Shown: positions 9,068-18,287 of the stretch, piece by piece
How the letters are laid out: the number at the start of each line of letters is the position of its first letter
How positions within the stretch are numbered: position 1 is the stretch's first letter
Assembly: GCF_003268005.1 (NCBI RefSeq)
Contig: NZ_CP014213.1
Span: 2,315,501-2,379,500, forward strand
Length of the DNA: 64,000 nt
Direction: 5' to 3'
Source: Methanosphaera sp. BMS
GTDB lineage: Archaea; Methanobacteriota; Methanobacteria; Methanobacteriales; Methanobacteriaceae
Notes under the pieces: generated by a model
Told to the model about the DNA's origin: nothing
What the model saw: only the letters and a program-made list of their open reading frames with translations
Databases searched by the model: none
Program-made: the position numbers and the translations under genes

Positions 9068-10216
9068 ATGAAAAGATTGCATCGATTATTAAAACATAAC
9101 AAAAACATTTATCAACGATTGGAATTCTTAAAAAAAGATGACAAACCAAAACTTCATAGAAATGAAAATTATGACTATAAAAATGATGATTCAACTAAAG
9201 AATTTAATGTAGGTTTAATTGTCATTATACTGGTAGTCTTATTGTTGATTACATTCGGATATTACCTCTTGGTATTTCAGCCACAAATGCAGGAATTACA
9301 GGAACATAAAAACATCAAAATCAATCAGGTTAATCAACTATTCAACACCACCACGTCGGAGGATGCCAATAAACAAGCAATTCTTGCAAAAATAGACTCT
9401 GCATCCACAGTCAGTCAAGTGGATGACATAGACGTATATGCATGGGCAACGCCGATAATCAAGAATAATCTTAAAGAACAAATAAAAAGCCAAAAGGATA
9501 AGTTTGGAAGGGTACAGATAAACACTGAAAATACAAGCAACATAATAAGCCAAAGTGATGCAAACAAGTACTTAAATACATTGGATGCAGATGGCTTATC
9601 AAAAACCTCAATATCCATGCCCGATACAGTGATAATACCTTTGAGCTTAAACAGGCGTCAGGCAGCCAGTGGCCTGTTGAAAACTGGAGACAGTGTGGAT
9701 ATATACAATACCAACAAAGAAATAAGTACCAGTCATGACCATTTAAACGCTACTGGTGATACTCACGAAATTTCCGATGAATCTAATCAGACAGAAAACA
9801 AAACATCCCTTGAAAACATTCCCGTAAATTCGACCGTGGATAAAAAATTAGTGGGTGGGGCAACTGTTGTATCAATTCTTAGATCAAAGGATTCGGGAAG
9901 TGTAGACAGCAATATAGAATTAAGTCAATATCCACATACTCGAAATTATACACAATCCAGTAAGGTGGATATAGAAGAGGTAATCCGAGCTAAAAGCTCC
10001 GGAACTCTGGATGAATCAAAACTAAAAATCATACTTGAGGATTACGGCTGGAAAATATCCAATTATGAAAGACTGGCTAATATAGGTGATCTTGACTGTG
10101 AATATATTATCATGCTTGAAGTGCCACGTGATGCCACTCAGGATTTGATAAATAACATGGACACGTTACTTCTTGTAATACCAAGCTATGACGCACCGGA
10201 TTGGGTGATACTGTGA
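9068..10216 (+). CDS. Membrane-anchored DUF515-like protein with SAF/CpaB-like segment
   Basis: 382 residues: a basic cytoplasmic N-terminus, one transmembrane helix (about 48-68, VGLIVIILVVLLLITFGYYL), a coiled stretch, then an extracellular domain. VIIPLSLNRRQAASGLLKTG followed by DSVDIYN (about 194-220) resembles the SAF/CpaB-like pilus assembly fold, where periplasmic loops handle a similar R-x-x-A-x-G-x-L-K-x-G-D-x-V-D motif. It appears to match DUF515, an uncharacterised family of Methanobacteriales/Methanococcales. The ATG is only 38 bases after the previous gene and has no SD site; a poly-T run precedes it. It overlaps the next gene by four bases. Confidence 0.62.
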   Translation: MKRLHRLLKHNKNIYQRLEFLKKDDKPKLHRNENYDYKNDDSTKEFNVGLIVIILVVLLLITFGYYLLVFQPQMQELQEHKNIKINQVNQLFNTTTSEDANKQAILAKIDSASTVSQVDDIDVYAWATPIIKNNLKEQIKSQKDKFGRVQINTENTSNIISQSDANKYLNTLDADGLSKTSISMPDTVIIPLSLNRRQAASGLLKTGDSVDIYNTNKEISTSHDHLNATGDTHEISDESNQTENKTSLENIPVNSTVDKKLVGGATVVSILRSKDSGSVDSNIELSQYPHTRNYTQSSKVDIEEVIRAKSSGTLDESKLKIILEDYGWKISNYERLANIGDLDCEYIIMLEVPRDATQDLINNMDTLLLVIPSYDAPDWVIL

Positions 10217-10587
10217 AAAATGATGAAAATAAAATGGATAAATATTTTGAAAATTTAACTGATAGAGAACGAGCAATATTTGAAGGTGGTATAAGTATGG
10301 GTTCACTATATCATCAATTTGTCGGAACCCCTGTAAATCTTGATACCTGCACTTCATTGGAAGATGCCATAAGAGAAAGTATTATGCTGCAACCTGCAGT
10401 AATTGATGTGGTAGTTAAATTAGATAAAGGATTGATTAAACAAGCAACTTCTTTGTCAACATATACTTCTCTTGCAGGTAACATGCTGAATATTGAGATT
10501 ACTACCAAAATTCATGAAGAATTGGTTACTACATGTATATCATATAATGAAGAATTGGATTATCCATTGATGTATATAAAGGACTGA
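10213..10587 (+). CDS. mptD: Archaeal dihydroneopterin aldolase
   Basis: Cleaves 7,8-dihydroneopterin to 6-hydroxymethyl-dihydropterin plus glycolaldehyde in methanopterin synthesis. About 124 residues with FENLTDRERAIFEGGISMGS, LYHQFVGTPVN and the C-terminal YNEELDYPLMYI, which I recognise as the archaeal MptD family (unrelated to bacterial FolB). The start is taken as GTG at 10213, overlapping the preceding stop (GTGA) with GGTGAT three bases upstream; an inner ATG at 10234 is the alternative. Its stop directly abuts the stop of the convergent coiled-coil gene. Confidence 0.83.
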   Translation: MKNDENKMDKYFENLTDRERAIFEGGISMGSLYHQFVGTPVNLDTCTSLEDAIRESIMLQPAVIDVVVKLDKGLIKQATSLSTYTSLAGNMLNIEITTKIHEELVTTCISYNEELDYPLMYIKD

Positions 10588-11364
10588 TTAACTTTCATCA
10601 TCATTCCCTTTTTTATCTTCTGTTCCCGCTGATAATTCCTTAATCTCTTCGGGAAGTCTATTTAACAAACGGTCAATAAAACTCATGCTTTGAACCTGGC
10701 CTATGGCAAAACTGTATTTTTCCAATCTTTTCAACGTATCATTCAATTCATCCTGTGTCTTGTTCAGTCTTTCCTGTGCATGTTCTCGTTTGTTTTTAAT
10801 TTTAGTATTTTCCTGAACTTGTTTGTTAGTCTCATCCACTTGCTGTCTGTATTTTTCTTCCAATATGTTGTTATCATTGTTTAACTTATAAATTGTGTTC
10901 TTTTGTGTTTCCACTTCTTTTTCTAATTTATCAATATCCTTTTTAAGTCTTTGAATATCTTCATTTGATCGACTTAGATTGTCCTTCAGGTTTTTATTTT
11001 CATTTTCCTTACTTAAAATTGTTTTTTCCTGTTCGGTTATTATTTTCGAATCATTTTCAGACTTTTTATCGAGTTCTTCTATTTTTTCCTTTAGACTTGC
11101 ATTTTCATTCTCTTTTTTTGAATATGATTCTTCCAGTGTGGAGTGTTTTTCATTAAGATTTTTGATTTCATCTTTTAAATTGTTGATTTTTGTTTTTGTA
11201 ACTTCCACATCATAAACATCCTCGGTGATATAATTTTCAATAGCCTTTTCGATTTCTTCTGAAGTATGTTTATAAGTAGTTCCATATTCCTCTTCAATTT
11301 TTTCCTGGAATTTGTTCCATAAATCCTCATTGATCTTTACTGTTTTTCTTACATATTCGCTCAT
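10588..11364 (-). CDS. Ribbon-helix-helix / long coiled-coil protein, unknown function
   Basis: I do not recognise a named family. About 258 residues from the ATG at 11364. N-terminus SEYVRKTVKINEDLWNKFQE followed by KIEEEYGTTYKHTSEEIEKA has the look of a ribbon-helix-helix DNA-binding domain (short beta strand, then two helices, residues 3-45). Residues about 55-215 are a nearly unbroken charged heptad coiled coil (Lys/Glu/Asn-rich). The last 40 residues hold a less polar segment, VQSMSFIDRLLNRLPEEIKE. The frame is open to 11448, but the ATG at 11364 has AGGTATGG upstream whereas the outer ATG has none. It faces a gene-free stretch with an array of GTATG motifs, which suggests binding there. 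A centromere-binding (ParB-like) or repressor role is only a hypothesis; no ParA ATPase is nearby. Confidence 0.7.
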   Translation of the reverse strand: MSEYVRKTVKINEDLWNKFQEKIEEEYGTTYKHTSEEIEKAIENYITEDVYDVEVTKTKINNLKDEIKNLNEKHSTLEESYSKKENENASLKEKIEELDKKSENDSKIITEQEKTILSKENENKNLKDNLSRSNEDIQRLKKDIDKLEKEVETQKNTIYKLNNDNNILEEKYRQQVDETNKQVQENTKIKNKREHAQERLNKTQDELNDTLKRLEKYSFAIGQVQSMSFIDRLLNRLPEEIKELSAGTEDKKGNDDES

Positions 11365-11473
11365 ATTACCATACCTAGTTACTCTATTTATCTTCGGGTA
11401 ATATATATTTAATGCTTCCCTCCTGCTTTTTAGCCGGTTGTCAGACATGACAAAAAAGATGAAATCATCTTTT

Positions 11474-11890
11474 CAAAGTATGTTTTCATATCTATGATTA
11501 TAATATATGTTTTCGCAATTATGTCTTTTCTTTATCCTCTTTTGAAATGTTGTTTTTTAAAGTATGATTTCATACTTCATACTTTTTTACATATTGTGCA
11601 TTAAAGTTGATTTCATAGTTTCAATGTATGATTTCCGATTTTCAAAAACAAATATTTGAATTTAAAATTATGAATTTTGAAATTAATTTTTCATGTAAAA
11701 TCGAAGTATGTTTTTCAAAATCAAATATCTGAAAAGTTGAAAAACATCCTCATCAAAAGTATGTTTTTCAAAGTATGATTTTTGTTTTTGACTGATGATG
11801 AAATTTATTATAAAACAGTTACTCTCCCTTTATTTGTAGTTTAAACGATTATTTGTGATTTTTCAAGAATTATGTTTTTTCATATTTTGA
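11474..11890. repeat. Array of AAGTATG(A/T)TTTTCA motifs, direct and inverted
   Basis: Six copies of GTATG(A/T)TTT on plus at 11478, 11562, 11626, 11706, 11759 and 11773, plus inverted copies (TCATACTT at 11570-11577 and 11577-11584; TTGAAAAACAT at 11737-11747) and weaker matches near 11505 and 11870. AAGTATGA-TT-TCATACTT at 11560-11577 is a perfect 8-bp inverted repeat. TTGAAAAACAT at 11737-11747 pairs perfectly with ATGTTTTTCAA at 11761-11771. Spacing is irregular, so it is not a CRISPR. It lies 110-530 bp upstream of the ribbon-helix-helix gene start and is probably its binding region. Confidence 0.72.
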
Positions 11891-12573: not shown

Positions 12574-12774
12574 ATGATATACTTAAACGAAGACTTGTGT
12601 AAAGGATGCTATTTATGTATGGAAGTATGTCCACGTAAAGTATACACACCTTCTGAAAATTTAAATCATAAAGGAATACGTGTACCTGTATTTGACCTGG
12701 AAAAATGTGTTAAATGCCAGTTATGTACATTAATGTGTCCTGATCAAGCAATTTTAATAGAGGATGATGATTAA
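12574..12774 (+). CDS. korD: 2-oxoglutarate:ferredoxin oxidoreductase, delta (ferredoxin) subunit
   Basis: 66 residues with two 4Fe-4S motifs, CKGCYLCMEVCP (about 9-20) and CVKCQLCTLMCP (about 48-59). Carries electrons between ferredoxin and the catalytic subunits. First gene of korDABC-sucC; its end touches the start region of korA. Ferredoxin-type subunits of pyruvate or 2-oxoisovalerate enzymes look similar; the sucC neighbour supports 2-oxoglutarate. Confidence 0.88.
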   Translation: MIYLNEDLCKGCYLCMEVCPRKVYTPSENLNHKGIRVPVFDLEKCVKCQLCTLMCPDQAILIEDDD

Positions 12775-16573: not shown

Positions 16574-17305
16574 TCAGATTTCAAATAATTTTGCAGGATT
16601 TATCTTAAATTGTAGCATGTTTGCGGATTTTTTACCTTTATCTCCACCTTTACGTTGCATACTGATTTTTCCGATTTTCAGATTACCCTTTGGTGTTATG
16701 AAAACTTCTCCTTTCGAATAATAATTAATTACTTTATTAATAGGTTGCAAGATCCATCGTATGTTATCTGTCTTTTGAACAACAAGTATCCATTCTGTCG
16801 AATAGGGGCCTCTACCTCTGAGTAAATCACAGATAATCCATATCTTGTTGTCATTAAAGAAGTTCAATATATCTTTTTGTTGTTTTGCTGAAAATTCATT
16901 TAAGTAAATTCTTTTTTTATCATCATCAGTACATGGTTTTAGTTCGCCAGTATAATATTTTAATAGTTCTGTTATATCATCAGGTATGTTCCACATCTTT
17001 TGATAGTTGTCAATCCACCTTTTATCGACTTGATTAAATCCTCTATAGCTGCTTAGTGATTTGACCTGTATATTATGGGTGTCGGTATGTTCGGTATCTG
17101 TTCTTGATATCTTAACTTGTATATCTGTTTTATTGTTTCTTATTGTATTGCTTTTTACTGATATGATCTCACTTAGCTTGTAACCCATTATTTTTAACCA
17201 TTGTTTGGAGTCTTCATCTTCTTTCCAGTTATTGAATTTATTCACGATATCCTTTTCACTTTGAAAACCGCTTTTTGCAATTTCAGAACCATTCTGTTTA
17301 ACCAT
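16574..17305 (-). CDS. Type II restriction endonuclease (partner of the m5C methyltransferase)
   Basis: Called mostly from position: it overlaps the end of a DNA cytosine methyltransferase gene by eight bases and is not otherwise a housekeeping protein. About 243 residues. NNKTDIQVKISRTD and HNIQVKSLSSYRGFNQVDKR look like the D-x(n)-(E/Q)xK core of a PD-(D/E)xK nuclease. The C-terminal QRKGGDKGKKSANMLQFKIN is a block I associate with some type II enzymes. The recognition site cannot be read from sequence. The inner ATG at 17305 is preceded by GGAAG at good spacing, while the outer ATG at 17320 has none. Confidence 0.72.
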   Translation of the reverse strand: MVKQNGSEIAKSGFQSEKDIVNKFNNWKEDEDSKQWLKIMGYKLSEIISVKSNTIRNNKTDIQVKISRTDTEHTDTHNIQVKSLSSYRGFNQVDKRWIDNYQKMWNIPDDITELLKYYTGELKPCTDDDKKRIYLNEFSAKQQKDILNFFNDNKIWIICDLLRGRGPYSTEWILVVQKTDNIRWILQPINKVINYYSKGEVFITPKGNLKIGKISMQRKGGDKGKKSANMLQFKINPAKLFEI

Positions 17306-18287
17306 TGTAAATACTTCCATCTTTTATTAGCTCTCTAATTATATACTGTAATATGTCAATTATGATACTGTTACCAAATTGCTTATGTGCCTGTGCTATG
17401 GATGGATTGATTTCATAATCATCTGGAAATCCCATCAAACGGGCAGTTTCACGTGGATGTAACTTTCTTACATTATTGTCAATATAATATAATCCTGTTT
17501 TTGAACCATTTCCTCCACCGGTTGCTGATAATGTTATTGCATGACCTTTATCTGAATATATTCTATCTCCCTGGCCGCCCTTATTTACGGTACCTACACG
17601 GATAGGTTTATTACTGCGAGAATTATTTATTTTACTGGTATCCAGTTTGTATTTCTTATTCAACACGAATTCATTCATGTTCCCTTTTAGCAGGATGTCT
17701 TCAAGGGCCACATCTTCATTTGTCGGATCTGGAAACTTAAAGTTGTGATTATCGATATCCTCTCTGATACATATGATGTATATGCGTTTTCTGCTTTGAG
17801 CGATACCATATTCACTGGCATTTATGACTTTGTAATATATATTATATCCTAATCTTTCCAGGTTCTCCTTAATTGTTATGAATGTTTTGCCGTGGTCATG
17901 TCTTTCTAGGTTACTTACATTCTCTAAAAATATAATCTTTGGTTTGTGATGTTTTGCTATTCTTATAATTTCAAAAAATAAGGTTCCTCTGATGTCTTCA
18001 AAACCTAATTGTTTTCCGGAGATGCTGAATGCCTGACATGGAAAACCTGCACATAATATGTCATGTTTTGGGATATTTTCCTCATTGATGTTGCGGATAT
18101 CTCCATGGGAGTGTGTGTTGAAATTCGTATCATATGTTTCACATGCATATTTATCTTTGTCTATACTGTATACACATTTTGCCCCAAATGATTCAAATGC
18201 TATTCTGAACGCTCCTATTCCTGAGAATAAGTCTATGAATTGCATATCTTTCAGCAGTTCTTTTTCATTTTCACTTAAGTTTATCAT
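17298..18287 (-). CDS. DNA (cytosine-5)-methyltransferase
   Basis: Protects the genome from the neighbouring nuclease by C5-cytosine methylation. 329 residues with all main motifs in order: I FIDLFSGIGAFRIAFESFG (about 17-35), IV GFPCQAFSISGKQLGFEDIR with the catalytic Cys, VI FLENVSNL, VIII QSRKRIYII, IX/X RETARLMGFPDDYEI and AHKQFGNSI. The target-recognition region lies around 220-275 (KGGQGDRIYSDKGHAITLSA). No strong SD site. Type II R-M gene pairs are often acquired by transfer; this one sits between housekeeping operons. Confidence 0.95.
   Translation of the reverse strand: MINLSENEKELLKDMQFIDLFSGIGAFRIAFESFGAKCVYSIDKDKYACETYDTNFNTHSHGDIRNINEENIPKHDILCAGFPCQAFSISGKQLGFEDIRGTLFFEIIRIAKHHKPKIIFLENVSNLERHDHGKTFITIKENLERLGYNIYYKVINASEYGIAQSRKRIYIICIREDIDNHNFKFPDPTNEDVALEDILLKGNMNEFVLNKKYKLDTSKINNSRSNKPIRVGTVNKGGQGDRIYSDKGHAITLSATGGGNGSKTGLYYIDNNVRKLHPRETARLMGFPDDYEINPSIAQAHKQFGNSIIIDILQYIIRELIKDGSIYNG

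Follow-up and report, generated by a model that had tools for sequence, protein, structure and literature searches.

The type-A locus and its array

The window analyzed here, a stretch of 64 kb, corresponds to positions 2,315,501-2,379,500 of the 2.87-Mb single-contig genome of Methanosphaera sp. BMS (G000). Within it, a gene for a predicted ribbon-helix-helix (RHH) coiled-coil protein, designated type A, lies next to an upstream array of short repeats, and the pair is framed by two neighbors that serve as synteny anchors (Table 1). Near the oxidoreductase operon, at 16574-18287 on the - strand, a DNA cytosine methyltransferase-like gene and then a restriction-endonuclease-like gene form a probable restriction-modification pair. 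The RHH gene itself can be read as a longer open reading frame starting at 11448, but since a TATA-like box lies inside this extension and all orthologs start at the MSEYVRKT position, the ATG at 11364 was taken as the start.

Table 1. Features of the type-A locus, in window coordinates
Feature	Position	Strand	Basis
Dihydroneopterin aldolase gene (DHNA, PF04038), convergent neighbor, synteny anchor	10201..10587	+	
Type-A RHH coiled-coil gene, 258 aa (MSEYVRKT...)	10588..11364	-	ORF; start by 15-species alignment and TATA-like box
Conserved C-terminal hook MSFIDRLLNRLPEEIKEL, residues 226-246	10627..10689	-	Alignment, amphipathicity, AF2 helix 229-242
Coiled-coil stalk, residues 48-225 (~175 residues)	10690..11223	-	AF2 continuous helix 31-225; alignment
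Predicted RHH DNA-binding head, residues 1-47	11224..11364	-	Family profile match to NikR; AF2 helices
TATA-like box of RHH gene (TTAAATATATATTA)	11399..11412	-	~35-48 bp upstream of start; by eye
Array, 17 type-A units (RAAAWCAWM-WTY)	11460..11880	14/17 on - (strand of the RHH gene)	PWM scan, k-mer and repeat statistics
4Fe-4S ferredoxin subunit of 2-oxoacid:ferredoxin oxidoreductase, divergent neighbor, synteny anchor	12574..12774	+	

An earlier note on this DNA had proposed an N-terminal RHH domain followed by a coiled coil of 160 residues, and both features are supported by profile comparison and structure prediction, with a stalk of ~175 residues. A profile of the family's N termini detects the RHH domain of NikR (2bj1 residues 2-44, E 8.6e-5), and the AlphaFold (AF2) model has an extended N terminus, helices at 13-27 and 31-225, and a short last helix at 229-242. 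An extended segment followed by two helices is the succession seen in RHH domains, and the second of these helices continues as a long coiled coil. Confidence exceeds pLDDT 90 for most of helix 31-225, and pTM is low, as expected of a single long rod. A Foldseek search with the monomer gave only a weak best match (6gyg, a plasmid regulator, E 6), perhaps because the strand of an RHH domain pairs in the dimer only, and Pfam scans of the protein yielded no RHH family among their matches. Full-length Pfam and NCBIfam matches (SMC, Rad50, BRE1 and others) were rejected as coiled-coil noise. Taken together, the profile and model evidence supports a distant membership of the RHH (MetJ/Arc/CopG) superfamily. 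No Pfam or NCBIfam family describes such RHH coiled-coil proteins, nor was a description of them found in the literature searched.

Conservation along the stalk is poor in the middle and strong in the last third. Strong conservation marks the last 75 residues of the type-A protein, which finish in the pattern M-x4-R-x5-P-x3-K-x-L, with M, R and P invariant over all paralog types. This C-terminal hook is the most amphipathic part of the protein and is rich in acidic residues.

Upstream of the gene, the six reported copies of GTATG(A/T)TTT within about 300 bp are all present, at 11478, 11562, 11626, 11706, 11759 and 11773 (11478-11781), and all lie on the + strand. Nine further copies occur in the window, giving a total of 15 against 3.75 expected, a count that none of the shuffles reached; for this motif, picked post hoc, the Poisson P of six copies in the array stretch is ~2e-10 with the rest of the window as rate. 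Genome-wide, 4 of the 11 exact matches to AAGTATGWTTTYNNA fall within the ~300 bp of the array. A position matrix for RAAAWCAWM-WTY, learned from 15 orthologous upstream regions that include the window locus, finds 16 sites in the densest 450 bp of the array, compared with a maximum of 3 and a mean of 0.32 in a 400-kb sample of the same genome (14% of it), which together with the window provided the background. Because the matrix was partly trained on this locus, the exact-pattern count and a motif-free repeat score carry more weight as independent statistics. The latter reaches a z of ~9-15, a value as high as which was seen in no dinucleotide-preserving shuffle; its maximum over 69 control intergenic regions was 7.1, at oriC. 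Arrays are present in all 15 type-A loci examined; by repeat score alone some species are significant and others are not, and several arrays in the latter rest on the common motif. A gapped-pattern search for further type-A clusters was confounded by T-rich low complexity.

The description of these repeats as palindromic holds in part. They are dense and a few pair as palindromes, for example GTATGATTTCATAC at 11562, but most are direct repeats of an asymmetric unit. Could they have arisen by chance in AT-rich DNA, next to a coiled-coil gene that has nothing to do with them? Base composition would favor this, the genome being rich in A and T and the unit in A; however, the dinucleotide-preserving shuffles and the 400-kb background rule it out, and it is contradicted by the conservation seen over 15 loci and by the nearly block-diagonal match of motif to type described below, leaving chance a negligible probability.

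Distribution and distance from the replication origin

Of 20 Methanosphaera genomes, a homolog search showed 17 to have the type-A gene and its array together at one syntenic position; the order there is DUF515 - DHNA - RHH coiled-coil gene - array - ferredoxin - oxidoreductase within the extent of the stretches compared. The remaining three genomes keep the order of the flanking genes, with DHNA conserved there as at the 17 orthologous loci, and have a DHNA-ferredoxin gap of ~440-500 bp that contains neither an RHH coiled-coil gene nor a type-A site. The absence of both from these empty loci implies that gene and array were gained or lost together; a neighbor-gene tree was poorly resolved as to which. 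Two nearly complete genomes (G001 and G012) have no family member at all, so the family is not essential for chromosome segregation. Elsewhere in G000, a 64-aa frame (C1:525500-525661) matches the hook profile with an E of 2e-6 and is probably a decayed family member.

The idea that the array marks an origin-proximal element did not survive. The replication origin of G000 is recognizable from several mini-ORBs, TTTACACTTG(A/C)AA, upstream of the main cdc6 gene, cdc6-1 (L097:11809-12533, ~2,027,800-2,028,530). This gene, at ~2.027 Mb, lies ~300 kb from the type-A array, and the corresponding distance is 191, 208 and 809 kb in three other near-complete genomes, while the 64-kb window has no mini-ORB. 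A related reading takes the array as an iteron-type origin or replication-control site in its own right. Iteron-like repeats beside a DNA-binding protein would suit such a role, as would the large non-coding stretch that holds the array of plasmid pNP174 (see below), but the position of the origin, the lack of an ORB in the window and the three genomes without a type-A module make it very improbable.

The earlier observation that no ParA gene adjoins the locus was upheld: the neighbors are DHNA and ferredoxin, the window contains no ParA match, and the best match of the genome lies near oriC, ~276 kb away. There, at ~2,050,300 (L137:10319-11427), a ParA ATPase gene is followed by one for a 110-aa protein with a ParB-like start (ALGRGLDALI). 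The ParA gene is ~22 kb from cdc6-1/oriC in G000, and three further genomes have it at ~20 kb from cdc6-1. These two genes are possibly the minimal chromosomal Par system of Methanosphaera, and the oriC-near ParA is a more conventional candidate for chromosomal partition than the RHH coiled-coil family.

Paralogs, private arrays and plasmid pNP174

The RHH coiled-coil family includes at least six array specificities. Besides type A, type B is found at metXY, type D at guaB and type E, in one genome, in a block with an archaeal histone gene that it adjoins (L075), with types C and F elsewhere. The array repeats are CAACAT/GCAACAT in type B, GTAAAACA in type C, TGTTAACA in type D, TGTACACA/TGTATACA in type E, and ATCTTACC or AATATTAC in type F. 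When each motif set was counted at every locus, with consensuses learned from the same loci, the resulting motif-by-type table was near block-diagonal with little crossover; the D motif, for instance, occurs at 22 per kb at D loci and at 0-1.5 elsewhere. The outward-facing residues of the RHH strand, at DNA-reading positions assigned from known RHH structures, also differ by type, being R-T-K in A, R-S-Q in B, and T-T-R or Q-T-R in C, D and E. Paralogs with Q/T-T-R have TGTnnACA-like units in common, and those with R-T-K, R-S-Q or K-S/T-N/S carry other motifs. Units are mostly spaced by 11 bp, about one helical turn, in types D and E and several type-F loci, and by 7/14 bp in type A, and in types A, D, E and F the majority are oriented one way. 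The hook is conserved across paralogs while the heads diverge. The motif-by-type table and the joint presence of gene and array in 17 genomes strongly support, at the level of sequence, a pairing of each paralog with its own array.

A further paralog, type G (L079:3428-4225 in G013, a genome without the type-A module), has no array detectable by k-mer or repeat statistics. Beside the type-F gene in two genomes (L070:461-1886 and L078:1081-2466) are two small RHH-like genes resembling those of mobilization modules, which suggests integrated or fragmented plasmids. Matches from another genus, g10 (284-300 aa, covering columns 46-160 only), were rejected as an unrelated coiled coil without RHH head or hook, and a viral origin of the family was likewise set aside, as two IMG/VR scans (with type-F and type-D proteins) and a phage tblastn gave no relatives. 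Coiled-coil proteins of other genera (L140:2777-3466, L141:105-710, L082:155-763 and L139:2846-3379) carry a similar hook on a different, non-RHH head, perhaps AbrB-like; the L140 and L141 genes have AACTCA repeats upstream, together with a mini-ORB-like TTTACACTTG site. Similar hooks on non-RHH heads in related genera argue that what these proteins do in common lies in the hook, with the head supplying the address.

The 174-kb plasmid pNP174, from Methanosphaera sp. ISO3-F5, has a type-F gene at 118870-119844 with 41 array units in the ~800 bp upstream, 26 of whose spacings are 11 bp. Nearly all copies of ATCTTACC in its 174 kb (24 of 26) fall within this array. No pNP174 match was found to the ParA (AAA_31), MreB_Mbl or tubulin profiles, and ten of its proteins that were scanned included no partition ATPase; the plasmid may have a divergent partition motor beyond the profiles used. 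A second array, of 16 GTAGCACA copies on either strand, occupies a 1.2-kb gap downstream of the RHH coiled-coil gene (L068:4346-5550) and is possibly the plasmid origin.

How much of this could be autoregulation? According to the main rival explanation, raised already in the earlier note, the arrays are operators only, bound cooperatively upstream of the protein's own promoter so that the protein controls its own expression, negatively or positively, and perhaps that of the divergent ferredoxin/oxidoreductase genes. Autorepression is classic for RHH proteins, the type-A, type-D, type-E and type-F arrays sit directly upstream of their own genes, and the last unit abuts the TATA-like box in many type-A species. 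For the window locus this explanation may hold, although the nearest unit there is ~48 bp upstream of the box, but it does not account for the family as a whole. The type-B array of the same genome comprises 20 units, all on one strand, 3.1 kb from the B gene and between two convergent genes, which by eye we take to be an fbp-like gene and metX. Arrays are present at the corresponding position in three further species (G005, G017 and G006); at the type-B loci of G002 and G003 no large CAACAT array was found. An array so placed is not simply an operator. Moreover, 41 phased units on a plasmid are far more than autoregulation needs, and the coiled coil and hook common to all paralogs are left unexplained, so that operator function alone appears unlikely, if still a serious contender.

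Alternatively, the proteins might bridge arrays or fold local chromatin as an architectural scaffold of the MatP or KfrA kind, with no part in segregation. The oligomerization potential of the coiled coil and the fixed syntenic positions on the chromosome, one of them beside the histone gene, would agree with this, but each array is one cluster rather than dispersed sites, and the presence of one on a plasmid fits partition better. We regard a purely architectural role as improbable.

Proposed function and comparison with known systems

We favor, with a probability of roughly 0.55, a two-part DNA-addressing module that would act as a KfrA- or ParR-like centromere or tether. The RHH head, as a dimer, would bind the directional units beside its gene, and this predicted binding of protein to array is well supported by the sequence comparisons. 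The stalk of ~175 residues would then project the C-terminal hook, which, being common to all paralogs, might meet one shared cellular partner or surface, perhaps the chromosomal ParA, FtsZ, an SMC complex or, despite the hook's many acidic residues, the membrane. The array would be a centromere-like or tethering site, serving stable inheritance in the case of pNP174 and positioning or anchoring the locus in that of the chromosome, with autoregulation of the gene as a by-product; paralogs in one cell would use different array sequences, much as coexisting plasmid partition systems do. The centromere-like site suggested in the earlier note is plausible and is the reading preferred here, with a role in segregation or tethering that we infer. 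The family looks like an undescribed module of this kind. It is tempting to go further and speculate, tentatively and at somewhat less than even odds, that there is a new class of archaeal DNA segregation or anchoring modules lacking a motor gene of their own, in which interchangeable heads with private iteron arrays are joined to a universal hook for one host partner, on chromosome and plasmid alike.

To our knowledge, how chromosomes and large plasmids segregate in Methanobacteriales methanogens is largely unknown. The module would offer a way into this question, with the array defining the DNA, the hook defining the partner, and the empty loci acting as natural knockouts beside a plasmid example. 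The arrays and their proteins might also be put to use as stability elements in methanogen vectors.

Several known systems have features in common with this family. KfrA of IncP and IncU plasmids combines a DNA-binding head with a helical coiled-coil tail of variable length and direct repeats beside its own gene, and has a reported tie to the segrosome and plasmid stability; its head is a helix-turn-helix and its operator consists of five 9-bp repeats overlapping the promoter (PMC7783346, PMC7821693). The long alpha-helical tail and a repetitive site adjoining the gene are shared, whereas the family described here has an RHH head, up to 41 units and a conserved C-terminal hook, is archaeal and mostly chromosomal, and has one array away from its gene. 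KfrA_N is also absent from the families listed in Pfam scans of the protein. In type II partition (R1, pSK41 and C. perfringens), the RHH protein ParR acts with adjacent parC direct repeats, each 10-20 bp long (11 bp in R1), which are family-specific and allow several systems per cell (PMC9426499). An RHH protein with an adjoining array of family-specific direct repeats is found here too, but with a very long coiled coil and no adjacent ParM; the actin-like MreB_Mbl profile found only Hsp70-sized chromosomal ORFs of 620-840 aa and none on pNP174.

SegB is likewise an archaeal RHH protein; its gene overlaps segA, and it recognizes dispersed palindromes, with sites upstream of the cassette and a proposed role in chromosome segregation (PMC12284271). 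Unlike SegAB, ParABS and ParFG, the present loci have no adjacent gene for a ParA-type ATPase, and their sites form a single dense directional cluster rather than the dispersed palindromes of SegAB. Differences from MatP/matS lie in the one cluster and in the background density elsewhere in the 14% genome sample, without macrodomain-wide sites, and an archaeal origin differs in that ORBs are found at cdc6-1 (~2.028 Mb in G000) and not at the array. The type III partition protein TubY, a partner of TubZ and TubR, has a MerR-like DNA-binding head, a coiled coil and an amphipathic C-terminal helix in a lysine-rich, membrane-binding tail (PMC7762940). This three-part layout recurs here with an RHH head and an acidic-rich hook, and no TubZ was found. 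On the features tested, the family is a member of none of these systems, and its closest precedents are KfrA, ParR/parC and TubY.
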